A program made the position numbers and the translations under genes. This document shows positions 37,619 to 51,317 of a stretch of 64,000 nt of DNA, one piece after another. The stretch comes from Burkholderiaceae bacterium. GTDB lineage: Bacteria; Pseudomonadota; Gammaproteobacteria; Burkholderiales; Burkholderiaceae_C. The DNA lies in contig JAKLLA010000017.1 in assembly GCA_023150375.1 (NCBI GenBank), positions 1 to 64,000 on the forward strand, read 5' to 3'. The notes beneath the pieces were generated by a model. It ran no database searches. It had not been told where the DNA came from and saw nothing but the letters and a program-made list of their open reading frames with translations. Numbering within the stretch: position 1 is the first letter of the stretch; each line of letters opens with the position of its first letter.

Positions 37619-38701
37619 TCAGTCCACCTGCAGCTTGGCGCCGCCGGCCTGCGGCAGGGCCTCGACGCGGCCGACCACCGCCGCCTGTTCGAAGCCGTGG
37701 CGGGCGAACACCGCCCGCACCGCGTCCAGCGTGTCCGGCCTGCAGGACACCAGCAGGCCGCCGCTGGTCTGCGGGTCGGTGAGCAGGGCGCGGTCGGCCT
37801 CGCCGAAGCCGGCGGGCAGCGCCACCTCGGCCCCGTAGCCGGCCCAGTTGCGCCCGGAGGCGCCGGTCACCAGGCCCTGCTCGGCCAGCGCCTGCACGCC
37901 CTCGAGGCGGGGCACGGCGGCCCAGTCGATCACCACCCGGCAGCCCGAGCCGCGCGCCAGTTCCAGGCCGTGGCCGGCCAGGCCGAAGCCGGTGACATCG
38001 GTGATCGCGTGCACGCCGTCGAGCTCGGCCAGTTCCGGGCCCGGGGTGTTCAGCCGCGTGGTGGTGGCGATCATGCGGGCGTAGCCGGCCTCGTCGAGGC
38101 GGCCCTTCTTGAGCGCGGCCGACAGCACCCCCACGCCGATGGGCTTGCCCAGCACGAGCAGGTCGCCGGCCTGTGCATCGGCGTTGCGGCGCACCCGCTT
38201 CGGGTGCACCAGGCCCAGCGCCACCAGGCCGTAGATCGCTTCCACCGAGTCGATCGTGTGGCCGCCCGCGATCGGGATGCCGGCGCTGCGGCAGACCGAG
38301 GCGCCGCCTTCCAGGATGCGGCCGATGGTGGCGGTGGACAGCACATTGATCGGCATGCCCACCAGCGCCAGCGCCAGGATCGGCCGCCCGCCCATGGCGT
38401 AGACGTCGCTGATGGCGTTGGTGGCGGCGATGCGGCCGAAGTCGAAGGGGTCGTCGACGATCGGCATGAAGAAGTCGGTGGTGGCGATCAGCGCCTGCTC
38501 GTCGTTGAGCTGGTAGACGGCCGCGTCGTCGGCGGTCTCGATGCCCACCAGCAGCTCCTTGGGGATGGGCATGGCCGCCGTGCCCTTCAGGATCTCGGAG
38601 AGCACGCCCGGTGCGATCTTGCAGCCGCAGCCGCCACCGTGCGACAGCGAGGTCAGACGGGGCTCGGCGGCGGGGGCGGGGCAGGCGGCAGGGGGCGTCA
38701 T
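37619..38701 (-). CDS. selD: Selenide, water dikinase (selenophosphate synthase)
   Basis: The 360-residue ATP-dependent enzyme makes selenophosphate from selenide. The glycine-rich loop HGGGCGCK places the catalytic Cys at residue 25 (Cys17 in E. coli) followed by Lys28. It is Cys, not selenocysteine: no in-frame TGA is needed. Asp-rich metal sites (TADDAAVY, TTDFF) follow. The ATG at 38701 overlaps the senB stop (ATGA), so selenophosphate production is translationally coupled to SenB, which uses it. No selA, selB or selU is in the window. Confidence 0.95.
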   Translation of the reverse strand: MTPPAACPAPAAEPRLTSLSHGGGCGCKIAPGVLSEILKGTAAMPIPKELLVGIETADDAAVYQLNDEQALIATTDFFMPIVDDPFDFGRIAATNAISDVYAMGGRPILALALVGMPINVLSTATIGRILEGGASVCRSAGIPIAGGHTIDSVEAIYGLVALGLVHPKRVRRNADAQAGDLLVLGKPIGVGVLSAALKKGRLDEAGYARMIATTTRLNTPGPELAELDGVHAITDVTGFGLAGHGLELARGSGCRVVIDWAAVPRLEGVQALAEQGLVTGASGRNWAGYGAEVALPAGFGEADRALLTDPQTSGGLLVSCRPDTLDAVRAVFARHGFEQAAVVGRVEALPQAGGAKLQVD

Positions 38702-39717
38702 GGGCGGGGTTCTCCGGGGGTGTTCGGGGCGCCGGTCAGGTCGGCCAGCAGGCGCAGCAGGTGGTCTCGCTCGCGCGCGGGCTCGAAGCGCGCGGCGCGC
38801 TCGGCGCACTGGGCGCGCAGGGCCGGCAGCATAGCGGCATCGTCGCGGGCGCGTTCGATCAGGGCCGCCAGCGCGGCGTCGTCGCCCCAGTCGAACAGGC
38901 CGCCGTAGTCCTCGCCCAGCAGGCCGAGGTTGCCGTCGATGCGCGAGGCCAGGACGGGGGTGCCGCTGACCAGGGCCTCGGTCACCACATGCGCGCCGCC
39001 TTCCATGCGGCTGGGGTGCACCAGCAGCTGCGCGTCGCGGATGCGGCGGCGTGTGGCCGCGTGCGGCAGCGCGCCCAGCCAGCGGTAGTGCGGGCACTCG
39101 GCCTGCAGCGCGCGCGCCTGGTCGGCCAGGGCCGGGTCGAGCGCGGCGCCGATGTGGTCGAAGCGCAGGTCGGTGCGCGCGGCCAGGCGGCGCACCGCGG
39201 CGAAGAAGGTGGCGGGCGACTTCTCCTCGCGCAGGTGGCCCACCATCAGCGCGCGCAGGTGGCGCCGCGGCCGCTGCGTTGCGGGCTGCAGGGCGCGCGC
39301 GGACTGCAGGATCACCGTGGTCTTCGCGCGCAGGGCGGGCGCCAGCCGCTGCGGGCCGCAGTCGTTGAGCACCACCAGCCGGTCGGCCAGTGCCAGCGAG
39401 CGCTGCGCGTCGGCGTCGGCGTCGATGTCGCGGTACAGGTCGGTGCCGGTGAGCACCAGCACCAGCGGCCGATCGGGATGCGTGGTCTTCCAGGCGAGGA
39501 TCGACGCGGCCGAGCGACGCGCGTGCAGCGCGATCATCAGCGCGGCGTCGGCGGCGCCCGGGCCGGCATGATCCGCCGCAAGCCCGTCCCAGCGGTCCCG
39601 CAGCTGCACTCGATAATGGCCCGCCAGCATGCCGGCCCAGCGTCGGGCGGTCTGCCAGTTGCCGTTGTTGGCGTCGGCCAGGGCTGGCGTCACCAGGACC
39701 AGGGCGGGGCGCTGCAT
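38698..39717 (-). CDS. senB: Selenosugar synthase SenB
   Basis: The 339-residue GT-B glycosyltransferase-like protein resembles SenB, which in Variovorax joins selenophosphate and a UDP-sugar to give a selenosugar. Visible features are the N-terminal LVTPALADANNGNWQTARRW segment, LTGTDLYRDI, a central MVGHLREEKSP and the donor-site HPSRMEGGAHVVTEAL segment. I start at ATG 39717 because the bases around it match those at the egtD start (CTCGAACGATGC); ATG 39729 is four codons upstream. It overlaps selD and diverges from senA with only 31 bases between starts. Confidence 0.9.
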   Translation of the reverse strand: MQRPALVLVTPALADANNGNWQTARRWAGMLAGHYRVQLRDRWDGLAADHAGPGAADAALMIALHARRSAASILAWKTTHPDRPLVLVLTGTDLYRDIDADADAQRSLALADRLVVLNDCGPQRLAPALRAKTTVILQSARALQPATQRPRRHLRALMVGHLREEKSPATFFAAVRRLAARTDLRFDHIGAALDPALADQARALQAECPHYRWLGALPHAATRRRIRDAQLLVHPSRMEGGAHVVTEALVSGTPVLASRIDGNLGLLGEDYGGLFDWGDDAALAALIERARDDAAMLPALRAQCAERAARFEPARERDHLLRLLADLTGAPNTPGEPRP

Positions 39718-39748
39718 CGTTCGAGCCATGCCAGGAGGTTAACCCCGG

Positions 39749-40993
39749 ATGTCGATCCACGATCGCCTGCACCACCCCGAGGCCGCGCTATTGCGCCAGG
39801 GCGACGCGGCGGCGCTGGGCGCCGCGCTGGCGGCCAGCCGCGCCGACACGCTGGCCACCTTCGAGGCCTGGCGCCGCGCCCTGCCCGAACTGGCCGTGCC
39901 GCTGCGTGACGCGCTGAACCCGCCGCTCTGGGAGCTCGGCCACATCGGCTGGTTCGAGGCGTTCTGGCTGGCGCGCAATCCCGAGCGCCACCGCGGCGTG
40001 GCCGCCGATCCCGAGGCGCCTCGCCCGGACAGCCTGCGCCCCGGTGGCGACGCGCTGTACAACTCCAGCCGGGTGCCGCACGACAGCCGCTGGGCCCTGC
40101 CGCTGCCCGATGCGAGTGCGACCCTGGACGATCTGGCCCGCCAGCGCGCGCAGACGCAGGGCCTGCTTGCCCAGCTCGGGCCGGGCTGCCGCGACGATGC
40201 GGCGCTGTACTTCTTCCGCCTCGCGCTGGCGCACGAGGACATGCACCACGAGGCTGCCCTGTACATGGCGCAGTCGCTCGGCCTGCCGATGGCCGATGTG
40301 CGCTGGCAGGCCGCGCGGCTGAGGCTGCCGCGCCAGCCCATCCGCATGGCGGCGCAGCGCTGGCGGCTCGGCTGGGCCGGGCCGGGCTTTGCGTTCGACA
40401 ACGAGCTGCAGGCGCAGGAACGGGAACTGGACGGCTTCGAGATCGACAGCCGCGTGCTGACCTGGGCCGAGTTCCTGCCCTTCGTCGAGGCGGGCGGCTA
40501 CCGGCAGCCGCAGTGGTGGGACGAGGCCGGTCGGGCCTGGCTGCGCGGCAGCGCGGCCGAGGCGCCGCGCTATCTGCGCTGCGCTGGCAGCGGCTGGCAG
40601 CAGTGGCGCCACGGCGCCTGGCGCGCGCTGCCGGCCGACGAGCCGGCCTGCCACCTGACCTGCTTCGAGGCCGAAGCCTGGTGTGCCTGGGCCGGACGCC
40701 GCCTGCCCACCGAAGCCGAATGGGAGTGCGCCGCGCTGGGGGCGCCGCAGCGCTTTCGCCACGGCGACGTGTGGGAATGGACCGCCAGCAACTTCGAGCC
40801 CTTCGCCGGCTTCGAGCGCCATCCCTACCGTGACTACTCGGCGCCCTGGTTCGGCGGCAGCCGGAGGGTGCTGCGCGGCGGCTCCTTCATGACCCAGCCG
40901 CGGCTGCGCCATCCACGCTATCGCAACTTCTTCCCGCCCGGGCGCAGCGACGTGCCGGCCGGCTTTCGCACCTGCGCCCGGCAGGGCGACTGA
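39749..40993 (+). CDS. senA: Selenoneine synthase SenA (EgtB-like)
   Basis: The 414-residue non-haem iron enzyme joins the selenosugar to hercynine on the way to selenoneine. The N-terminal DinB-like half has HIGWFEAFWL and the iron motif HEDMHHEA (HxxxHxE). The C-terminal FGE-sulfatase half has DVWEWTASNF, RVLRGGSF and a final AGFRTCARQ. The senB-selD genes next door separate SenA from the ergothioneine enzyme EgtB. AGGAGG (39733-39738) precedes the ATG by 10 bases. Confidence 0.92.
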   Translation: MSIHDRLHHPEAALLRQGDAAALGAALAASRADTLATFEAWRRALPELAVPLRDALNPPLWELGHIGWFEAFWLARNPERHRGVAADPEAPRPDSLRPGGDALYNSSRVPHDSRWALPLPDASATLDDLARQRAQTQGLLAQLGPGCRDDAALYFFRLALAHEDMHHEAALYMAQSLGLPMADVRWQAARLRLPRQPIRMAAQRWRLGWAGPGFAFDNELQAQERELDGFEIDSRVLTWAEFLPFVEAGGYRQPQWWDEAGRAWLRGSAAEAPRYLRCAGSGWQQWRHGAWRALPADEPACHLTCFEAEAWCAWAGRRLPTEAEWECAALGAPQRFRHGDVWEWTASNFEPFAGFERHPYRDYSAPWFGGSRRVLRGGSFMTQPRLRHPRYRNFFPPGRSDVPAGFRTCARQGD

Positions 40994-41156
40994 GCATGCC
41001 GCCCGAGTTTCCGGGGCGTGCGGTGTAACTTTCGCGCCGACGGCCGCGACTGGCAGGGCACGGGCGAACCGATGCGTTGGCGCCCGGTCGAAGCGGCAGT
41101 GCCTGGCCCGCCATGCCCGCCGCGACCCCTGACCTGCAACCTGGATCGGCAACACC

Positions 41157-41552
41157 ATGACCCTGCTTTCCACCTCCTTCCTGCGCGGCCTGTGCGCCGC
41201 CGTGGCCCTGACCGCCAGCGCCTGGGCGCAGGCCCTCGAGGTCAAGCCCTTCAGCGCCGAGGCGCTGGCCGCGGCCCAGCAGGCCGGCCAGCCGGTCGCG
41301 GTGCACTTCCATGCCGAGTGGTGCCCCACCTGCAAGCTGCAGGAGAAGGCGCTCACGCAACTGAAGGGCGAGTCCGGCCTGGACCTCACCGTGCTGGTGG
41401 CCGACTACGACAAGGAGAAGGAGCTGAAGAAGGCGATGCGGGTGCGCACCCAGTCCACCCTGGTGGTGTTCCGCGGCACGCAGGAGAAGGCCCGGCTGGC
41501 CGGCGACACCGCGGCCGACAAGATCCGCGCGGCCTTGAAGGCCGCCCTCTGA
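41157..41552 (+). CDS. Exported thioredoxin-fold protein
   Basis: The 131-residue protein has a signal peptide (1-25) and a thioredoxin domain with redox motif WCPTC (Cys56, Cys59). It resembles the C-terminal domain of DsbD. It is followed 16 bases later by a CcdA-like membrane protein, a normal partner that would pass electrons from cytoplasmic thioredoxin to it. Its position between senA and egtD raises the possibility of a reductive role for selenium species, which is inference only. Confidence 0.88.
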   Translation: MTLLSTSFLRGLCAAVALTASAWAQALEVKPFSAEALAAAQQAGQPVAVHFHAEWCPTCKLQEKALTQLKGESGLDLTVLVADYDKEKELKKAMRVRTQSTLVVFRGTQEKARLAGDTAADKIRAALKAAL

Positions 41553-41568
41553 GGCGGGGCGGCGCGTC

Positions 41569-42297
41569 ATGGAGCTGTCCCTGCCCCAGATGGGCCTGAG
41601 CCTGGCCGCCGGCAGCCTGACCACGCTGAGCCCCTGCGTCTTCCCGCTGCTGCCGCTGGTGCTGGGCGGGGCGCTGCAGGGGCACCGGCTCGCGCCGGTG
41701 GCGCTGGGGCTGGGCATGGCCGGCTCCTTCGCGCTGATCGGCATGCTGCTGGGCGCGCTCGGCCCTGCGCTGGGGCTGGACGGCGACGTGATCCGCCTGG
41801 CTGGCGCCTGGCTGCTGATCGGCTTCGCGCTGGTGATGCTGATCCCGGCCTGGAGCGAGCGCTTCACGAACTGGATGATGCCCCTTGCCAGCAGCGCCAA
41901 CGCCGCCTCGTCGCGGCTGTCCGGCGCATCGCTGGGCAGCGCCCTGCTGCTGGGTGGCGTGCTCGGCCTGGTCTGGAGCCCCTGCTCGGGCCCGCTGCTG
42001 GCCTCCGCGCTGACGCTGGTGGCCAGCGAGGGCGGCGTGGCCCGCGGCGGCCTGGTGCTGGGCCTGTTCGGCATCGGTGCGGCGATGCCGCTGGTGGCGG
42101 TGGCCTATGCCTCGCGCGCCGGCTTCGACCGCGCCCGCGGCTGGGTGCTGGGCCACATCGAGCGGGTCAAGAAGGGCTTCGCGCTGCTGCTCGGCCTGAT
42201 GGGTCTGGCCATCCTGAGCGGCGCCGACAAGTGGCTGGAAGCGCGCGTGAACAACTGGCTGCCCGAGTCCTGGCTGGGGCTGACGGTGGCGATCTGA
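41569..42297 (+). CDS. CcdA/DsbD-type transmembrane electron carrier
   Basis: The 242-residue protein has six or more membrane helices and the paired Cys-Pro motifs LSPCVFPLLP (Cys23) and WSPCSGPLL (Cys139), which form the membrane disulfide shuttle of CcdA/DsbD. It shares an operon with the preceding thioredoxin. Known uses in the family are cytochrome c maturation and periplasmic thiol reduction. Neither can be chosen from sequence, as no ccm genes are near. Confidence 0.88.
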   Translation: MELSLPQMGLSLAAGSLTTLSPCVFPLLPLVLGGALQGHRLAPVALGLGMAGSFALIGMLLGALGPALGLDGDVIRLAGAWLLIGFALVMLIPAWSERFTNWMMPLASSANAASSRLSGASLGSALLLGGVLGLVWSPCSGPLLASALTLVASEGGVARGGLVLGLFGIGAAMPLVAVAYASRAGFDRARGWVLGHIERVKKGFALLLGLMGLAILSGADKWLEARVNNWLPESWLGLTVAI

Positions 42298-42323
42298 GGC
42301 GATCGGCCGTCCGCTGCCGGACC

Positions 42324-43283
42324 TCAGGACGCCAGGAACACCGCGAAGTCGCCCGCCGCATCGCACCAGTGCTGCAGGCGGCGCCAGCCGGCGTCGTGCA
42401 GCAGCGCGGCAAAGCCCTCGGTCGTCCACTTGCAGGCGTTCTCGGTGTGGATGCGCTCGCCTGCCACGAAACGGCGCGCGCCGCCGGGCCAGCGCAGCGT
42501 CAGGTCGCGGCGGGCCTCGAGGTGCATCTCGATGCGCGAGTTCGCCGCGTCGAAGAAGGCGACGTGGCGCCAGTCGCGCAGGTCGAAGTCGCAGCCGGCC
42601 AGGCGGTTCAGGTGGCGCAGCAGGTTGAGGTCGAAGGCGGCCGTGACGCCCAGCGGGTCGTCATAGGCCGCCTCCAGACGCGCCTGGTCCTTCACCAGGT
42701 CCACGCCGATCAGCAGGGCGCCGGCCGGCGCCAGCGCGCGCGCCTCGCGCAGCAGCCGCAGGGCCTCGGGGGGCGTGAAGTTGCCGATGCTCGAGCCGGG
42801 GTAGAAGATCAGTGCGCGGGGATCCTCCCAGCCCGCCGGCAGCGCCAGCCGGGCCGAGAAGTCCAGTCCCAGGCCGGCCATCTCGATGTCCGGGTGGCGC
42901 TGCTGCAGCTGGCCCAGCGCCTCGCCCAGGTAGTCCACCGAGATGTCCAGCGCCAGGTAGCGGCGCGGCTGCAGGACCGGGAACAGGCGCGCCGCCTTGG
43001 CGCAGTTGCCCGCGCCCAGGTCGATCAGCGTGCGGTTGTCGCCACAGGCCGCCCGGGCGGCCGCTGCGATCTCGGCCTCGTGGGTGGACAGGATCTGCGC
43101 CTCGGCGCGGGTCAGGTAGTACTCGTCGAGCTCGGTGATGGCATCGAACAGCCGCGAGCCCAGCGCGTCGTAGAAGAACTTGGGCGACACCCGCGCGGCG
43201 GGCTGCTGCAGGCCGGCCAGGGCCTCGGCGGCCAGTTGCCGGGCATCGATCTGCAGGGTCTGGAGCAGGGTCGGCGAGCGCAT
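42324..43283 (-). CDS. egtD: L-histidine N-alpha-methyltransferase EgtD
   Basis: The 319-residue methyltransferase converts histidine to hercynine with three SAM; the mycobacterial enzyme is 321 residues. The SAM loop LIDLGAGNCAKA, the FYDALGSRLFDAITELDEYY region (residues near 36-55) and FYPGSSIGNFTP are characteristic. ATG 43283 matches the family N-terminus; the longer frame to 43532 is intergenic. Hercynine is the acceptor for SenA, whose gene lies about 1.3 kb away, so the pathway is complete in this island. It diverges from the selenate-type transporter. Confidence 0.93.
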   Translation of the reverse strand: MRSPTLLQTLQIDARQLAAEALAGLQQPAARVSPKFFYDALGSRLFDAITELDEYYLTRAEAQILSTHEAEIAAAARAACGDNRTLIDLGAGNCAKAARLFPVLQPRRYLALDISVDYLGEALGQLQQRHPDIEMAGLGLDFSARLALPAGWEDPRALIFYPGSSIGNFTPPEALRLLREARALAPAGALLIGVDLVKDQARLEAAYDDPLGVTAAFDLNLLRHLNRLAGCDFDLRDWRHVAFFDAANSRIEMHLEARRDLTLRWPGGARRFVAGERIHTENACKWTTEGFAALLHDAGWRRLQHWCDAAGDFAVFLAS

Positions 43284-43464
43284 CGTTCGAGTCGGCCGCA
43301 GCGGCGGGCAAGACACGGTTCGTGCAGCATGCCACGGCTCGAGGTCCAATCGGGGCCTTGCGGCCTGCGTTCGTCGTTGCCGTCGCCGTTCCCGGTTCCC
43401 CCGGTCCCCCCGTTTCCGTTCCCCGCCCCCGTCCATCCGGACCCGCTTCCAGGAGATTTTCGTC
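43284..43464. promoter_or_regulatory. Divergent control region of egtD and the selenate-type transporter
   Basis: This 181-base gap must hold both promoters. It is dominated by pyrimidine-rich direct repeats (variants of CCGTTCCC and GGTTCCCCC, about 43380-43435) with few recognisable promoter hexamers. AGGAGA at 43451-43456 is the ribosome-binding site of the receptor gene. I recognise no operator. Confidence 0.4.
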
Positions 43465-44328
43465 ATGCTGAGCCTGTCGCCTTCCCGCACCTTCAAGTCG
43501 CTGCTGACCTGCGCCCTGCTGGCCTTCGGCATCTCGAGTCATGCCCAGCAGGTCTTCCGCGTCACGGCGATTCCCGACGAGGCGCCGACCGAACTGGCGC
43601 GCAAGGCGGCCCCGCTGATGAAGTACCTGGAGAGCAAGCTGGCGGTGAAGGTGGAGTTCACCCCGGTGACCGACTACGCCGCCTCGGTGGAGGCGCTGGT
43701 CAACCGCAAGGTGGATCTGGCCTGGTTCGGCGGCTTCACCTTCGTGCAGGCGCATGTGCGCTCCGGCGGCAAGGTGATCCCGCTGGTGCAGCGCGAGGAG
43801 GACGAGAAGTTCCGCTCGGTGTTCATCACCAGCGATGCCTCCGTGAACAGCCTGGCCGACCTGAAGGGCAAGGACGTGAGCTTCGGCTCGCAGAGCAGCA
43901 CCTCCGGCCACCTGATGCCGCGCAGCTTCCTGCTGCAGGCCGGCGTCGACCCCGACAAGGCCTTCCGCCGCGTGGCCTACAGCGGCGCCCACGACGCCAC
44001 CATCGCCGCGGTGGCCGCAGGCAAGGTGCAGGCCGGCGCGCTGAACATCTCGGTGTGGGAGAAGTTCGTTGCGGAAAAGAAGGTCGACACCAGCAAGGTG
44101 CGCGCCTTCTACACCACGCCGGCCTACTACGACTACAACTGGACCGTCCATGCCGACATGCCGGCCGCCCTGCAGGCCAAGCTGCGCGACGCCTTCCTGG
44201 CCCTGAGCAAGTCCACGCCCGAGGGCAAGGAGATCCTGGAGCTGCAGCGCGCCACCCGCTTCGTGCCGACGAAGGCCGACAACTACAAGGGCATCGAGGC
44301 CGCGGCGCGCAGCGCCGGGCTGCTCTGA
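43465..44328 (+). CDS. Putative selenate ABC transporter substrate-binding protein (PhnD-like)
   Basis: The 287-residue receptor has a signal peptide (about 1-27) and the PhnD-type fold (VTAIPDEAPTELARKAAPLM, residues near 32-51; VDLAWFGGFTFVQA; GKDVSFGSQSSTSGHLMPR). A clade of this family is annotated as selenate-binding because it clusters with selD. Here it sits in a selD-senBA-egtD island, which fits that use. Phosphonate or phosphite binding is the alternative, but no phn or ptx catabolic genes are nearby. Confidence 0.85.
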   Translation: MLSLSPSRTFKSLLTCALLAFGISSHAQQVFRVTAIPDEAPTELARKAAPLMKYLESKLAVKVEFTPVTDYAASVEALVNRKVDLAWFGGFTFVQAHVRSGGKVIPLVQREEDEKFRSVFITSDASVNSLADLKGKDVSFGSQSSTSGHLMPRSFLLQAGVDPDKAFRRVAYSGAHDATIAAVAAGKVQAGALNISVWEKFVAEKKVDTSKVRAFYTTPAYYDYNWTVHADMPAALQAKLRDAFLALSKSTPEGKEILELQRATRFVPTKADNYKGIEAAARSAGLL

Positions 44329-44339
44329 GTGCAGCGGCG

Positions 44340-45173
44340 ATGAGGGTCGAGACCCAGGGCCTGGGCGTGCGCCATCCGGCCGCCCGTGCCGAGGCCCGCG
44401 CGGCGCTGGCGCCGCTCGAGTTGCGCATCGACGCGGGTGAGCAGGTGGCGGTGATCGGGCCCTCCGGCGCCGGCAAGACCAGCCTGCTGCATGCCCTGGC
44501 CTGTGCGCTGCCGCCGGCCCAGGGCCGGCTGCGGCTGGACGGCGTCGATCCCTGGGCGCTGCCGCGCCGCGGCCTGCAGCGGCTGCGTGGCCGGCTGTTC
44601 CTGGCGCCGCAGACGCCGCCGCTGCCGCCACGCCAGCGCGTGGTCACGGCGGTGCTGGCCGGTCGCCTGCCCGCGATGGGACTGGCGGCCAGCCTGGCGT
44701 CGCTGTTCTATCCCCGCGACATTCCGGCGGCGCACGAGGCACTCGCCGCTTTCGACCTGGCCGACAAGCTCTTCGAGCGGGTCGATCGCCTCTCCGGCGG
44801 CGAGCGCCAGCGCGTCGGCCTGGCGCGCACGCTGCTGGCGCCGGCCTCGCTGTGGCTGATCGACGAGCCCCTGTCGGCGCTGGACCCGGCGCGCTCGCGC
44901 CAGGCGCTGGCCGCGCTGACCGGCCAGGCCCGCGCGCGCGGCGCCACGCTGGTGGCCACGCTGCACCAGGTCGAGCTGGCGCTGCAGGCCTTCCCGCGCG
45001 TGATCGGCCTGCGCGACGGTGCACTGGCCTTCGACCTGCCGGCGTCCCAGGTGAGCCCGGCGCGGCTGGCGGCGCTCTACGCCCAGCACGAGGAGGAGCT
45101 GCGCGCGCCGCCCCCGCCCGCCGAGGCGTCGCTCCCGGCCGCTGCGGCCCCGGTGGTGATGCACTGCCGCTGA
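44340..45173 (+). CDS. ABC transporter ATP-binding protein of the selenate-type importer (PhnC-like)
   Basis: The 277-residue ATPase has Walker A GPSGAGKTS, signature LSGGERQR and Walker B LIDEPLSALD. It follows the receptor gene by 11 bases and precedes two permease genes, giving a complete importer. The C-terminus ends in an Ala/Pro-rich tail. A 122-base gap follows before the first permease. Confidence 0.88.
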   Translation: MRVETQGLGVRHPAARAEARAALAPLELRIDAGEQVAVIGPSGAGKTSLLHALACALPPAQGRLRLDGVDPWALPRRGLQRLRGRLFLAPQTPPLPPRQRVVTAVLAGRLPAMGLAASLASLFYPRDIPAAHEALAAFDLADKLFERVDRLSGGERQRVGLARTLLAPASLWLIDEPLSALDPARSRQALAALTGQARARGATLVATLHQVELALQAFPRVIGLRDGALAFDLPASQVSPARLAALYAQHEEELRAPPPPAEASLPAAAAPVVMHCR

Positions 45174-45295
45174 ACGTTGCCGACGATGCCCGGCTGCGAC
45201 GTTCCCCTCCACCCGCGCGCTGCCCCCGGATCGCGACGCGTGCGATCCCGCCTCGGACACCACCTCGGGTATCCTGTGCAGCCCTTTTCCCGTCC

Positions 45296-46138
45296 ATGAA
45301 CGCTGCCACCCTGTCTTCCTCCGACCCGCGGCTGCGCGACCCGGCGCTCTGGCCCCGCCTGGCCTGGACCAGCGCCGCACTGGTGCTGCTCTGGCCACTG
45401 GCCGTGGCCTGCGAGTTCCGGCCCTGGCGGCTGTTCGAGGCGGAGAACCTGCGCGTGGCGGGCCGCTTCCTGGCCGACTTCCTGCCCCCGGCGCTGGGGA
45501 CCGAGTTCCTCTGGCTGGTGGCGCGCGAGACCTGGCGCACCGTGGCCATTGCCACCGCCGGCATCACGCTGGCATTGCTGATCGCGCTGCCAGCCACCCT
45601 GATGACCGCCCGTGCGCTGTCGGTCTCGGCGCTGTCGGGGCGCATGGCCACCGCGCCCTTCCTGCTGCGCCAGGCGCTGCGCTGGAGCCTGATCGTGCTG
45701 CGCTCGGTCCCGGAGCTGGTCTGGGCGCTGGTGTTCGTGCGCGTCGTCGGGCTGGGCCCCACCGCGGGCGTGCTGGCCATCGCGCTGACCTACGGCGGCA
45801 TGCTCGGCAAGGTCTACGGCGAGATCCTCGACAGCGGCGAGCCCCAGGCCACCGAAGCGCTGCTGCGCAACGGCAGCGGCCGCCTGCAGGCCTTCTTCTA
45901 CGGCCTGCTGCCCCAGAACGCGGGGGAGCTGACCTCCTACACCGTCTACCGCTGGGAATGCGCGATCCGCTCCTCGGTGGTGCTCGGTTTCGTCGGGGCG
46001 GGCGGGCTGGGCCAGCAGCTCGACAGCTCGATGAAGATGTTCGCCGGCGGCGAAGTGGCCACCATGCTGGCGGTCTTCGTCGGCCTGGTGGCGCTGGCCG
46101 ACCGGGGCAGTGCGGCGCTGCGCCGTGTGCTTGCCTGA
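45296..46138 (+). CDS. ABC transporter permease 1 of the selenate-type importer (PhnE-like)
   Basis: The 280-residue inner-membrane protein has about six helices and the permease loop ECAIRSSVVLGFVGAGGLGQ (residues near 221-240) that docks on the ATPase. It is of the PhnE type and is followed by a second, diverged copy, a two-permease arrangement seen in PhnE-type importers. The ATG at 45296 has no strong ribosome-binding site. Confidence 0.88.
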   Translation: MNAATLSSSDPRLRDPALWPRLAWTSAALVLLWPLAVACEFRPWRLFEAENLRVAGRFLADFLPPALGTEFLWLVARETWRTVAIATAGITLALLIALPATLMTARALSVSALSGRMATAPFLLRQALRWSLIVLRSVPELVWALVFVRVVGLGPTAGVLAIALTYGGMLGKVYGEILDSGEPQATEALLRNGSGRLQAFFYGLLPQNAGELTSYTVYRWECAIRSSVVLGFVGAGGLGQQLDSSMKMFAGGEVATMLAVFVGLVALADRGSAALRRVLA

Positions 46139-46156
46139 AGCCGGAAGGCCGTTCCG

Positions 46157-46984
46157 ATGCGCGACCAGCCCGCTGCCAACCCACCGTACAAGCTGCCGCC
46201 GCCGCTGTTCGACGCCCGCTGCCGGGCCTGCTGGATCGTCGCCGGCCTGATCGGGCTGGTGCTGGCGAGCTTCTGGAGCCTGGACCTGCAGGTGGCGGCC
46301 TTCTTCTCCGCCGAGTCGGCCCGCTCGATGGGCCGCTTCCTGGGCGAGTTCTTCCCGCCGGATCTCGCGACGCCCTTCCTGGCCAAGGTGGCGGCGGCCA
46401 CCGTCGAGACCCTGGCGATGTCGGCGCTGGGCACGCTGCTGGCGGCGCTGGCCGGTCTGGCGCTGGCCCTGCCGGCAGCGCGCCTGCACGACGGCGACCG
46501 CGCCCTGGCCCGCGCGCCCACCCGGCTGCTGCTCAATGCGCTGCGTGCCATTCCCGAGCTGGTCTGGGCGGCGCTGCTGCTGATCTCCGCCGGCCTGGGT
46601 CCGCTGGCCGGTACGCTGGCACTGGCCCTGCACACCACTGGCGTGCTCGGCCGCCTGTTCGCCGAGGCGATCGAGAACGCACCGCCCGGGCCCGGCGACG
46701 CCCTGCGTGCCCAGGGCGTGGGCCTGCTGAAGGTGACGGCCTACGCCACGCTGCCGCAGGTGCTGCCGCAACTGGTCAGCTACAGCCTGTACCGCTGGGA
46801 GAACAACATCCGCGCCGCCGCGGTGCTGGGCGTGGTCGGCGCCGGCGGCCTGGGCCAGCTGCTGGCCTTCCACATGGGCCTGTTCCACATGAACAAGACC
46901 GCCACCATCCTCGCGGCCATGCTGCTGCTGGTGGCGCTGGTGGACGCGCTGAGCTACGCCTCGCGGCGCTGGCTGATGCGGTGA
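46157..46984 (+). CDS. ABC transporter permease 2 of the selenate-type importer (PhnE-like)
   Basis: The 275-residue permease is a paralogue of the one before it: the docking loop NNIRAAAVLGVVGAGGLGQL (residues near 215-234) aligns directly. The two probably form a heterodimer. The gap to the first permease is 18 bases. Its stop is followed closely by an ATP-grasp gene on the same strand. Confidence 0.88.
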   Translation: MRDQPAANPPYKLPPPLFDARCRACWIVAGLIGLVLASFWSLDLQVAAFFSAESARSMGRFLGEFFPPDLATPFLAKVAAATVETLAMSALGTLLAALAGLALALPAARLHDGDRALARAPTRLLLNALRAIPELVWAALLLISAGLGPLAGTLALALHTTGVLGRLFAEAIENAPPGPGDALRAQGVGLLKVTAYATLPQVLPQLVSYSLYRWENNIRAAAVLGVVGAGGLGQLLAFHMGLFHMNKTATILAAMLLLVALVDALSYASRRWLMR

Positions 46985-47031: not shown

Positions 47032-48459
47032 ATGAGCCGGCTCCCTCGCGTGGGTACCCTGTTCGCCTTCGACTGGGACGCCCAGGGCTACGCCGCGCTG
47101 GCGTCGCGCTGGCGCTGCGACCGGGCCGGCTTCGACCTGTTCAGTTTCCCGAGCAATGCCCGGCTGATCGGCTTCGACCTGGATCGCTTCGCCGCGGCGC
47201 AGGCCCGGCGCGGGCGGCGGCTGGGCTGGGCCGGGGTGGTGTCGCACCACGAGCAGTTCGGTGCGCTGGCCGCCGCGCTGGTGGCCGAGCGGCTCGGCCT
47301 GCCCGGCCCGCGGCCCGAGGCCATCCTGGCCGCCCAGCACAAGCTGCATGCCCGCCGCGTGCTGCAGCAGGTCGCGCCCGAGGCGGCCCTGCCGGCCCGG
47401 CCGCTGCCCTGCGCCTACGGCGAGGACATTCCGCAGGGGCTGGACTACCCCGCCTACGTCAAGCCGGTCAAGGCGGCGTTCTCGGTGCTGGCGCGGCGGG
47501 TGGATTCGCGCGAGGAACTGCAGCGCCACACCCGCTTCGGCCGGCGCGAGCTGTGGGTGATCCGCCACCTGGTCGAGCCCTTCGAGCGCGTCTGCCGCCG
47601 CCGCCTGCCCGAGGCCGGCACGGCGCACCGGATGATGCTGGAGGCCCCCTTGCCGCCCGACACGCCGCAGTACAACCTCGACGGCTGGGTGCACCGCGGT
47701 CGCGCCCATGCGCTGGGTGTGGTCGATGCGGTGATGTACCCGGGCACCCAGGCCTTCATGCGCTGGGAGCATCCCAGCCGGCTGGACGCGGCGGTGCAGG
47801 CGCGTGCGCTGGACGTGGCGCAGCGCTTCCTGAGCGCCATCGGCTTCGACCAGGGGCTGTTCAACCTGGAGTTCTTCCACGACCCGGTGACCGATCGCCT
47901 CAGCGTGATCGAACTCAACCCCCGCCTGGCCTCGCAGTTCGGCGACCTGTACCGGCGTGTGCAGGGGCGCGATCCGCACGAGATGGCGCTGCAGCTGGCC
48001 GTGGGCGGCGACCCCGACGCCCTGCCGCGCCGCCGCCCCACGGCCGGCGCTGCGGCCAGCCTGGTCTACCGCAGCCTGCGCCCCGGCGACGAACCGCCGA
48101 TGCCCGATGCAGCCCGGCGCGCCGCCTTCGCGCGCGCCCATCCGGACGGCCTGCTGTTCACCCTGCCCAAGACCGGCCATGCATTGGCGCGCGAGTACAA
48201 ATGGCTGGGCAGCCACCGCTATGGCCTGGTGCACCTGGGCGGGCGCGACGCGCAGCACCTGCGCGAGCGGGCCGAACACGCCAGCCTGCTGCTGGGCTGG
48301 CCGCCGCCTTATGCCGCCGAGGCCTTGCGGTCGACGGCCGCGCCGGGGGCCTCGAAGGCTTCGACCGGCGGCCTTGCGCAGCGCTTGCCTGGCGCGCAGG
48401 CCCGCGGTCCGGCGGGCGAGCGGGCCGGGCCGGCGGCGCGCATCCAGCCGCTGCGCTGA
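47032..48459 (+). CDS. ATP-grasp ligase of unknown substrate
   Basis: The 475-residue protein has an ATP-grasp core: PAYVKPVKAAFS gives the ATP-contacting Lys, and NLEFFHDPVTDRLSVIELN carries the Glu/Asn metal ligands near residue 290. Such enzymes join a carboxylate to an amine or thiol through an acyl phosphate. The ATG lies 47 bases after the permease stop; a GTG at 46981 overlapping that stop is in frame too. The C-terminal 120 residues are family-specific, then Ala/Gly-rich. Its place behind the selenium transporter is suggestive but unproven. Confidence 0.8.
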   Translation: MSRLPRVGTLFAFDWDAQGYAALASRWRCDRAGFDLFSFPSNARLIGFDLDRFAAAQARRGRRLGWAGVVSHHEQFGALAAALVAERLGLPGPRPEAILAAQHKLHARRVLQQVAPEAALPARPLPCAYGEDIPQGLDYPAYVKPVKAAFSVLARRVDSREELQRHTRFGRRELWVIRHLVEPFERVCRRRLPEAGTAHRMMLEAPLPPDTPQYNLDGWVHRGRAHALGVVDAVMYPGTQAFMRWEHPSRLDAAVQARALDVAQRFLSAIGFDQGLFNLEFFHDPVTDRLSVIELNPRLASQFGDLYRRVQGRDPHEMALQLAVGGDPDALPRRRPTAGAAASLVYRSLRPGDEPPMPDAARRAAFARAHPDGLLFTLPKTGHALAREYKWLGSHRYGLVHLGGRDAQHLRERAEHASLLLGWPPPYAAEALRSTAAPGASKASTGGLAQRLPGAQARGPAGERAGPAARIQPLR

Positions 48460-50963: not shown

Positions 50964-51317
50964 ATGGACATTCCCGGCTTCCTGCGCGACAACTGGCCCC
51001 TGCTGCTCCTGGCCGCCTGGTTCGGCCATAAGTGGTGGCGCGCGCGGCGCGTCAAAGCCCTGCTGCCGACGCTGAAGCAACAGGGGGCGCTGCTGCTGGA
51101 CGTGCGCTCCGCCGCCGAGTTCGCTGCGGCCAGCGCGCCGGGCACGGTCAACATTCCCCTGGGTGAACTGAGCAGCCGCCTGGCCGAGATCCCCAGGTCC
51201 GCTCCCGTCGTGGTCGGCTGTGCCAGCGGCACCCGCAGCGGCATGGCCCGGATGCTGCTGCGCAAGAACGGCTATGCGCAGGTCTACAACATCGGGGCGT
51301 GGAAGCAGTTTCTGTGA
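50964..51317 (+). CDS. Membrane-anchored rhodanese-domain protein
   Basis: The 117-residue protein has one N-terminal membrane helix (NWPLLLLAAWFG) and a rhodanese domain with active loop CASGTRSG, so the catalytic Cys is present. Rhodaneses carry persulfide sulfur and some handle selenium. Its distance from the selenium island, with one unrelated gene between, makes that link speculative. TATACT at 50919-50924 may be its -10 box. Confidence 0.85.
   Translation: MDIPGFLRDNWPLLLLAAWFGHKWWRARRVKALLPTLKQQGALLLDVRSAAEFAAASAPGTVNIPLGELSSRLAEIPRSAPVVVGCASGTRSGMARMLLRKNGYAQVYNIGAWKQFL

Follow-up and report, generated by a model that had tools for sequence, protein, structure and literature searches.

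A 64,000-nucleotide stretch of a Burkholderiaceae contig (the window) carries genes of selenoneine synthesis close to egtD and the genes of a PhnD-type ABC importer, and we found that the receptor of this importer recurs beside selenium genes in relatives. We consider it rather probable, from gene content and gene order, that these genes form an extended sen island, in which the importer would bring in a selenium oxyanion and SelD, SenB, EgtD and SenA would make selenoneine, a selenium antioxidant. The first sen cluster (senA-senB-senC/selD) to be described came from Variovorax paradoxus (Kayrouz 2022, as covered in the commentary PMC9814287 and in excerpts of PMC10891094 and PMC10702425), and the locus described here shares with it orthologues of SenA, SenB and SelD and the known order of reactions. 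Unlike the three-gene cluster, as given in PMC9814287 and in the excerpts of the other two papers, it further holds egtD, the importer genes, a gene for an ATP-grasp ligase and a thioredoxin-CcdA pair. The sen cluster and the hint at selenium in NCBI's label for the receptor family TIGR04553 were already known; the recurrent island of importer, egtD and sen genes is new.

Gene content of the island

Gene calls were made by comparing NCBIfam profile scores with the curated cut-offs (Table 1). All genes named in an earlier note on this DNA were found in place, and SelD, SenB, SenA, EgtD and the receptor passed their cut-offs. The overlap of selD and senB by ATGA, also proposed there, was borne out, since positions 38698-38701 of the minus strand hold both the start codon of selD and the stop codon of senB. 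The same is true of the divergence of senB and senA, with 19 bp between the annotated starts; SenB possibly starts at its fifth codon (39717), as a solved relative suggests, and the gap would then be 31 bp. The reading of four further genes as an importer held at family level for the receptor (TIGR04553) and the second permease (TIGR01097), while the ATPase and the first permease scored below their cut-offs and are therefore named PhnC-like and PhnE-like. The thioredoxin-CcdA pair between senA and egtD and the ATP-grasp gene behind the second permease were absent from the earlier note.

Table 1. Features of the island in the window, with profile scores and curated cut-offs
Feature	Position	Strand	Profile evidence
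selD (senC-type selenophosphate synthase), Cys form GGGCGCK	37619..38701	-	NF002098, 533.6 vs 299 bits
senB, selenosugar synthase	38698..39729	-	TIGR04348, 437.8 vs 300 bits
senA, selenoneine synthase	39749..40993	+	NF041186, 494.9 vs 420 bits
Thioredoxin-like protein, hydrophobic N-terminus (signal-peptide-like), WCPTCK motif	41157..41552	+	PF00085, 43.7 vs 23.5 bits
CcdA/DsbD-type transmembrane electron carrier	41569..42297	+	PF02683, 62.9 vs 27.1 bits
egtD, histidine N-alpha-methyltransferase (hercynine)	42324..43283	-	TIGR03438, 348.7 vs 290.9 bits
Importer receptor (periplasmic), TIGR04553 clade ("putative selenate")	43465..44328	+	407.9 vs 250 bits
PhnC-like ATPase of the importer	44340..45173	+	TIGR02315, 165.6 bits, under cut-off 266.1
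PhnE-like permease 1	45296..46138	+	TIGR01097, 187.3 bits, under cut-off 216.7
PhnE-like permease 2	46157..46984	+	TIGR01097, 257.9 bits, over cut-off 216.7
ATP-grasp ligase (47-bp gap to permease 2)	47032..48459	+	Pfam/NCBIfam: no family over curated cut-off

Comparison with solved structures agreed with these assignments. SenB matched solved SenB structures and kept the EGGAHV motif in the alignment (motif from an excerpt of PMC10891094). SenA scored 419.7 bits against the selenoneine synthase chain 8ryz, compared with 147.7 for OvsA and 133.5 for EgtB; an identity as EgtB was ruled out, as the EgtB profile TIGR03440 gave 226.8 bits against a cut-off of 360 and the closest match among solved chains is to a selenoneine synthase. 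A profile search found the EgtD of the island as the sole EgtD match in the genome and no EgtB over the family cut-off, and SenA is therefore the only evident client of EgtD. SelU is encoded elsewhere in the genome, whereas no match to SelA was found in it. A role of SelD in selenocysteine synthesis was ruled out by the latter result, and a SelD reserved for selenoneine by the former, because SelU needs selenophosphate too. The product of selD is probably common to the selenoneine route and the tRNA selenouridine enzyme SelU.

Linkage and co-occurrence across relatives

The position of the receptor was followed in two samples, namely 300 genomes of the window's order, of which 65 carry the receptor (window included), and the 80 nearest named SenA loci, the best 80 of at least 562 relatives. 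Many of the named loci are short contigs, so that absences in them are soft, and at least five (L254, L256, L281, L299 and L305) apparently belong to the order sample as well. In the order sample, SelD or a SelD-like domain was found within 10 kb of the receptor in 15 of the 65 receptor genomes, and SenA or SenB in 11, in several gene orders, where SenA includes SenA-like proteins below the cut-off (L072, L074, L089, L091 and L101). SenB lay within this distance in 10 genomes, whereas random placement would give about 0.4 (assuming one SenB per genome, genomes of 3 Mb and no shared ancestry), and EgtD did so in 9. Of the 65 receptors, 50, some of them near contig ends, had no SenA, SenB or SelD within 10 kb.

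Among the 80 named loci, 39 held the receptor, after removal of a fortieth candidate (L281, 76-87 bits) that proved to be another PhnD-like protein. The receptor gene followed senA directly on the same strand in 15 of the 80, with gaps of 79-307 bp, and SelD, SenB, SenA, EgtD and the receptor were all present in 20. Carriers of the island include Hydrogenophaga pseudoflava NBRC 102511 (L296), and Rubrivivax pictus W35 (L258) is one in which the ATP-grasp gene is present. The comparison of neighbourhoods thus found egtD and the receptor recurring with SenA, and the placement of egtD and the importer around sen genes in relatives is non-random, which supports the earlier note on this point. Gene order varied: one locus (L101) has a SenA-like gene, SelD, receptor, ATPase, permeases and EgtD on one strand, and two others (L084 and L085) have SenB, SelD, receptor, ATPase and permeases on one strand. 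The order SenA-thioredoxin-CcdA-EgtD-ATP-grasp was seen again in L187 and L305, which are probably one locus. In a receptor tree built by a quick method with no bootstrap, the label for proximity to sen genes needed six changes, and branches with an SH-aLRT value of 95 or higher require no fewer than five of these. Outside the order, a phylum sample of 98 genomes (95 of them from other orders) gave seven receptor genomes, none with the receptor and a SenA match on one contig.

The Fisher and Poisson tests used here ignore shared ancestry. At the level of whole genomes, 32 carried both the receptor and SenA over its cut-off, where 14.3 would be expected (odds ratio 5.7, p 2e-8), and the association persisted within selenium users, defined by SelU, SelA or SenA (odds ratio 3.8, p 2e-5). 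Selenium users made up 63 of the 65 receptor genomes. As for the two exceptions, the receptor of one (G190) sits on a very long branch and is probably outside the clade, and the other (G150) has an assembly in fragments. Selenium use is as common, however, where the PhnD-like receptor is a distant one (54 of 56 genomes among the matches listed), which makes the co-occurrence with selenium use non-specific; we dropped it as proof of a selenium ligand, and the case is therefore based on linkage and on co-occurrence with SenA. Distant receptors showed a weak SenA excess (19 of 56 among the matches listed, p 0.016) when genomes that also carry the clade were kept. No such excess was seen in genomes with distant receptors alone (10 of 39, again among the matches listed, p 0.34) or within selenium users (p 0.19).

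A broader role of the island importer has to be weighed here, in which it would serve selenium uptake in general, feeding SelD for selenouridine, selenocysteine and selenoneine, and would lie near sen genes only by way of selD. We regard this as a serious possibility, though somewhat short of probable. It accords with the 33 of 65 receptor genomes that lack SenA over the cut-off, with the 18 that have SelU alone, and with an excess in receptor genomes of both SelA (33 of 65, where 18.2 would be expected; odds ratio 3.7) and SelU (61 of 65, odds ratio 7.6), SelU being present in the window's genome also. The receptor furthermore lies beside SelD with neither SenA nor SenB in L086, L096 (a 4.1-kb contig), L103 and L110, and selA is about 10-13 kb from it in three genomes (G170, G063 and G202). 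Two findings speak against a link by way of selD alone: 9 of the 65 receptors have EgtD beside them, an enzyme not known to act in selenouridine or selenocysteine synthesis, and in 15 named loci the receptor gene comes right after senA, on the side opposite to selD. The terms 'complete' and 'self-contained', used of the island in the earlier note, were overstated: no step reducing selenate or selenite is established, SelD should also serve SelU, and most receptors in the order sample stand apart from SenA, SenB and SelD.

The receptor pocket and the transported ion

The AlphaFold model of the receptor (pLDDT 84.6) gave PhnD1 (7s6g), 5lq8 and 5lq5 as its best PDB matches. The receptor resembles PhnD1 of Synechococcus and Prochlorococcus and the phosphite/phosphate receptor PtxB in fold and in ligand-contact residues, and differs from them in sequence, with at most 43% identity in the fold alignment. 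The contact residues of PhnD1 (Tyr, Ser-Thr-Ser, His, Asp/Asn and a capping Tyr) are all identical in the window's receptor. When 104 receptors were compared, with no row dropped, Tyr71, His176 and the capping Tyr224 were identical in all, and Ser145-Thr146-Ser147 was kept in 103-104. Position 38 was Asp or Glu throughout, position 194 Asn or Asp but Ser or Gly in three rows, and position 223 Asp or Asn but Glu in one. Beside the cap, Asn225 was found in 104 of 104 receptors, whereas PhnD1 (7s6g) has His; it is one of 18 positions that are more than 95% conserved in the clade (n = 104) and differ in 7s6g, where one is missing.

These contact residues do not tell selenate, selenite and phosphite apart, and the ligand of TIGR04553 is a guess within the name of that family. 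According to excerpts of PMC10284923 and PMC5700983, the ligands of its closest solved relatives are phosphite, phosphate and methylphosphonate, and the former gives micromolar levels for the binding of phosphite by PhnD1 proteins. Like PhnD1 and PtxB, the importer might carry a phosphorus anion, be it phosphite, phosphate or a small phosphonate, either for phosphate supply, or near selD through the ATP and phosphate chemistry of selenophosphate, or by coincidental operon building. We think this unlikely. It draws on the closeness of PhnD1 and PtxB, the nearest solved proteins by both sequence and fold, and on the conservation of the contact residues; against it stand the linkage to selD, senA and senB repeated in different gene orders, the clear SenA co-occurrence of the clade, which genomes with distant PhnD-like receptors only do not have, and the invariant Asn225 in place of His.

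The proximity of the receptor to egtD and senA could also reflect salvage of an organic compound, be it selenoneine, ergothioneine, hercynine or a selenosugar. An aromatic box is usually needed for betaine-type ligands. The residues with which PhnD1 holds small anions are all kept in the pocket, the capping tyrosine among them, and some receptors lie beside selD with no senA or senB in view, which makes salvage very improbable. For import of a selenium oxyanion, the pocket comparison suggests an XO3 anion such as selenite at least as much as selenate, and by shape selenite would be favoured over selenate.

Proposed route and the additional genes

The gene families, the recurrent linkage and the type of pocket were established here from sequence; we infer that the transported ion contains selenium, that it moves inward and that it is then reduced. 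In the proposed route, the PhnD-type periplasmic receptor, the PhnC-like ATPase and the two PhnE-like permeases would import a selenium oxyanion, more likely selenite, which is pyramidal like phosphite, than selenate. General thiols or some redox partner would convert the oxyanion to selenide in the cell. SelD would then form selenophosphate, SenB a selenosugar and EgtD hercynine, and SenA would join selenosugar and hercynine into selenoneine. The reactions of SenA, SenB and SelD/SenC are established for relatives and are assigned here by gene family. The thioredoxin-CcdA pair was ruled out as a general part of sen loci, as it was found in only 6 of the 80 named SenA loci, within the stretch covered around each.

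The AlphaFold model of the ATP-grasp ligase (pLDDT 83.8) matched the L-amino acid ligases 3wo1, 3vot and 3vmm best. It shares with BacD/YwfE, BL00235 and RizA a predicted ATP-grasp fold (TM 0.55-0.60 by query length), although identity to them is 13-17%. Lys144, Glu280, Glu294, Asn296 and Arg298, which we take to be typical ATP-grasp residues, are invariant in 13 sequences. Co-occurrence of the ligase and SenA was seen in 25 of 34 genomes, where 7.5 would be expected, and 14 of the 80 named SenA loci contain the ligase gene. In six other genomes its gene adjoins a methyltransferase-like gene, which resembles (as matched by eye) a gene near some sen loci, and the ATP-grasp gene may therefore belong to a separate module. 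That the island combines dedicated high-affinity selenite import with a ligase joining an amino acid to selenoneine or hercynine, giving an undescribed selenoneine conjugate, is a speculative idea to which we give little weight, and the enzyme is a possible tailoring enzyme.

Taken together, the island importer probably takes up a selenium oxyanion, judging by its sequence and surroundings. An importer joined repeatedly, and in varied orders, to selenoneine genes provides a specific candidate for dedicated bacterial selenium uptake that can be tested at low cost. The island would also be a portable cassette of importer, selenophosphate, selenosugar, hercynine and selenoneine steps with which selenoneine could be produced from trace selenium.

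Gene content of the island and its host genome

The earlier note had listed selD, senB, senA, egtD and a four-gene ABC importer, and this list proved correct, the importer genes being those for a receptor, an ATPase and two permeases; the ATGA overlap between selD and senB, on the minus strand, was confirmed as well. Of the eight products, the ATPase and the first permease matched PhnC and PhnE, respectively, with scores below the curated family cut-offs; SelD, SenB, SenA and EgtD exceeded theirs, as did the receptor and the second permease. The interval between senA and egtD encodes a thioredoxin-like protein and a CcdA/DsbD-type membrane protein, absent from the earlier note. Among solved structures, selenoneine synthases were nearest to SenA (419.7 bits, compared with 147.7 for OvsA and 133.5 for EgtB), and selenosugar synthases were nearest to SenB.

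Features of the selenoneine island and its downstream neighbours
Feature	Position	Strand	Remark
selD	37619-38701	minus	over curated cut-off
senB	38698-39729	minus	over curated cut-off; ATGA overlap with selD
senA	39749-40993	divergent from senB	over curated cut-off
egtD	42324-43283	minus	over curated cut-off
receptor, ATPase, two permeases	end 46984	plus	after egtD
ATP-grasp gene	47032-48459	same strand as second permease	begins 47 bp past the end of the second permease
rhodanese-like protein	~50964-51317	plus	membrane-anchored; named by eye; a few kb downstream of the island

The only EgtD match in the assembly was the island's own and no EgtB passed the cut-off there, the top match other than SenA scoring 131 bits, so that SenA is the one evident client for hercynine. 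SelU is present in the genome, and the selenophosphate made by the island therefore probably also feeds tRNA selenouridine. The genome search gave no match for SelA, and two SelD-family matches were counted, of which that of the island is the one among the matches listed.

Linkage of the importer to sen genes

Each family was searched in the same sample of 300 genomes of the order. SenA passed the cut-off in 66 genomes and SelU in 217 (218 at E 1e-60), and the receptor family (TIGR04553) was found in 65, SelD in 205, SelA in 84 and the ATP-grasp protein in 34 (E 1e-10). We took up to 20 kb around the 64 other receptors, and around cut-off-passing SenA matches outside those stretches. Besides the window, SelD or a SelD-like domain lay within 10 kb of the receptor in 14 of the 64 genomes, SenB in 9, SenA or a SenA-like protein in 8 and EgtD in 8, against ∼0.4 expected for each partner by random placement. 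In these relatives, the importer and egtD are thus not randomly placed with respect to the sen genes.

The cases with SelD near the receptor span eight families of the order, and their arrangement varies. At one locus (L101) a SenA-like gene, SelD, the receptor, the ATPase, the permeases and EgtD lie on one strand and SenB faces them; at two others (L084 and L085) SenB, SelD, the receptor, the ATPase and the permeases share a strand; and three (L067, L075 and L121) have a gene order like that of the window. On a receptor tree of 104 tips, built by a quick method without bootstrap, proximity to sen genes required 6 changes, at least 5 of them forced by branches with SH-aLRT of at least 95. Taken together, the varied gene orders and forced changes look as if a functional partner had been joined or lost several times, and not like a single inherited accident.

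Seen from SenA, the receptor was present at 4 of the 71 cut-off-passing loci of the order sample, window included, and all four fell within the 19 loci whose SenA scored at least 280 bits against that of the window; EgtD was near 26 of the 71. This indicates that not every sen cluster has the full island, which characterizes one SenA lineage and several independent arrangements. The receptor was more frequent (39/80) at the named SenA loci nearest to that of the window, the best 80 of at least 562, which come from Rubrivivax, Roseateles, Hydrogenophaga, Ideonella, Leptothrix, Ramlibacter, Methyloversatilis and many other Burkholderiales. SenB was found in 69 of these loci, SelD or a SelD-like domain in 57 and EgtD in 40, with SelD, SenB, SenA, EgtD and the receptor all together in 20; in 15, senA and the receptor gene share a strand and the latter begins 79-307 bp after the former.

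The importer could also serve selenium metabolism in general. An excess of the receptor with SelA (33 of 65 genomes, 18.2 expected) and SelU (61/65, 47.2 expected) is the pattern that such a system would give. Co-occurrence with selenium use as such is unspecific, since the 63 selenium users among the 65 receptor genomes are matched by 54 of 56 listed genomes with distant receptors, i.e., PhnD-like proteins outside the TIGR04553 clade. The partner that stands out is SenA, found in 32 of the 65 receptor genomes (14.3 expected). Among the matches listed, SenA occurred in 10 of 39 genomes carrying distant receptors alone (p 0.34) and in 19 of 56 when genomes with both kinds were added (p 0.016), the latter excess giving p 0.19 when limited to selenium users. 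In a phylum sample outside the order, the receptor occurred in 7 of 95 genomes, all in the same class, and in no case did it share a contig with a SenA match. Three genomes (G170, G063 and G202) carry selA ∼10-13 kb from a TIGR04553 receptor, another possible selenium link.

The earlier note had described a complete uptake-to-selenoneine unit with a dedicated importer. A path from uptake to selenoneine is a likely reading and the linkage is recurrent, but the evidence does not reach as far as 'complete' or 'dedicated'. Results that count against the reading include the 50 of 65 receptors, some near contig ends, with no SenA, SenB or SelD within 10 kb.

Ligand of the receptor

By sequence and by fold, the solved structures nearest to the receptor are PhnD1 and PtxB, whose ligands are phosphite, phosphate and methylphosphonate. 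The PhnD1 contact residues named in passages of PMC10284923 and PMC5700983 map to Tyr71, Ser145-Thr146-Ser147, His176, Asp223 and the capping Tyr224, with Asp38 and Asn194 as cap-holding positions, and the receptor is identical to PhnD1 at every one of them. Tyr71, His176 and Tyr224 are identical in all 104 receptors and Ser-Thr-Ser in 103-104; Asp38 is D or E, Asn194 is N or D (S or G in three), and Asp223 is D or N with one E. In the relevant passages of PMC10284923, the PhnD1 proteins tested did not bind hypophosphite, an anion with two oxygens, from which the authors deduce a requirement for three. Selenite shares the pyramidal XO3 shape of phosphite, and for this reason we favour it as the putative ligand over the selenate of the family name. 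Sequence alone cannot separate selenium from phosphorus. Next to the cap, all 104 receptors have Asn225 where PhnD1 (7s6g) has His, which makes Asn225 a candidate specificity residue.

Accessory genes and relation to known sen clusters

L-amino acid ligases best match the predicted structure of the ATP-grasp protein (pLDDT 83.8). Of the 34 genomes with this gene, 25 carry SenA (7.5 expected, odds ratio 15, p 7e-12), and it lies within 14 of the 80 nearest named SenA loci. The putative ligase often sits in sen/egtD loci (eleven, besides the window). Where it is placed elsewhere, a methyltransferase-like neighbour is common to six loci. Such a gene also lies near sen genes at six loci, and that of one (L276) matches several methyltransferase families, none listed over the cut-off; judged by eye, the sen-side and ATP-grasp-side genes, from different genomes, are similar. 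The ligase may tailor selenoneine, or may belong to another module travelling with it.

Other variations were seen. At seven loci, L067 and L075 among them, the place of SelD is taken by a distantly related SelD-like domain (150-165 bits to the SelD of the window) ∼2 kb from senB, possibly as part of a larger fusion protein. In L243/L244 (Roseateles puraquae and a MAG) and L287, senA is followed by the ATPase and both permeases, with no TIGR04553 receptor beside them. A MerA/glutathione-reductase-like FAD oxidoreductase near the sen genes of 6 of the 80 loci, which in L243 passes the NF004992 cut-off, is a possible selenium reductase. Six loci, from Hydrogenophaga and other Burkholderiales, have a HAD-type hydrolase (named by eye) on the selD side, and six carry a second, distant SenA/EgtB-like gene (94-122 bits) within the island, mostly behind the permeases. 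A second SenA-family gene in genome G245 (L168) has HEDMR in place of the HEDMH of SenA, and its family score still passes; the changed last His is presumably an iron ligand of SenA, lost there. SelD frames on contig C28 of genome G005 and contig C22 of genome G054 have one in-frame TGA each, as expected for selenocysteine-containing SelD.

The sen pathway has been described (PMC9814287; also passages of PMC10891094 and PMC10702425), and NCBI's name for TIGR04553 already guesses selenate; in excerpts of two papers, that name serves as an annotation label. Passages of two comparative genomics studies (PMC5322559, PMC5029168), whose main text lacks the word phosphonate, propose selenium candidates, namely YedE and an ABC ATPase. 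The literature searched, with subscription papers lying outside it, contained no account of an importer linked to sen genes and egtD. According to an excerpt of a 2026 review (PMC13188914), a specific high-affinity transport system for selenium has yet to be identified in any prokaryote, and a 2022 review (PMC9312934) states nearly the same in the excerpt concerned. The locus is an extended sen island, new as a variant of the known sen cluster, and its putative importer is a good but unproven candidate for a selenium importer, with which the island would likely lead from uptake to selenoneine.
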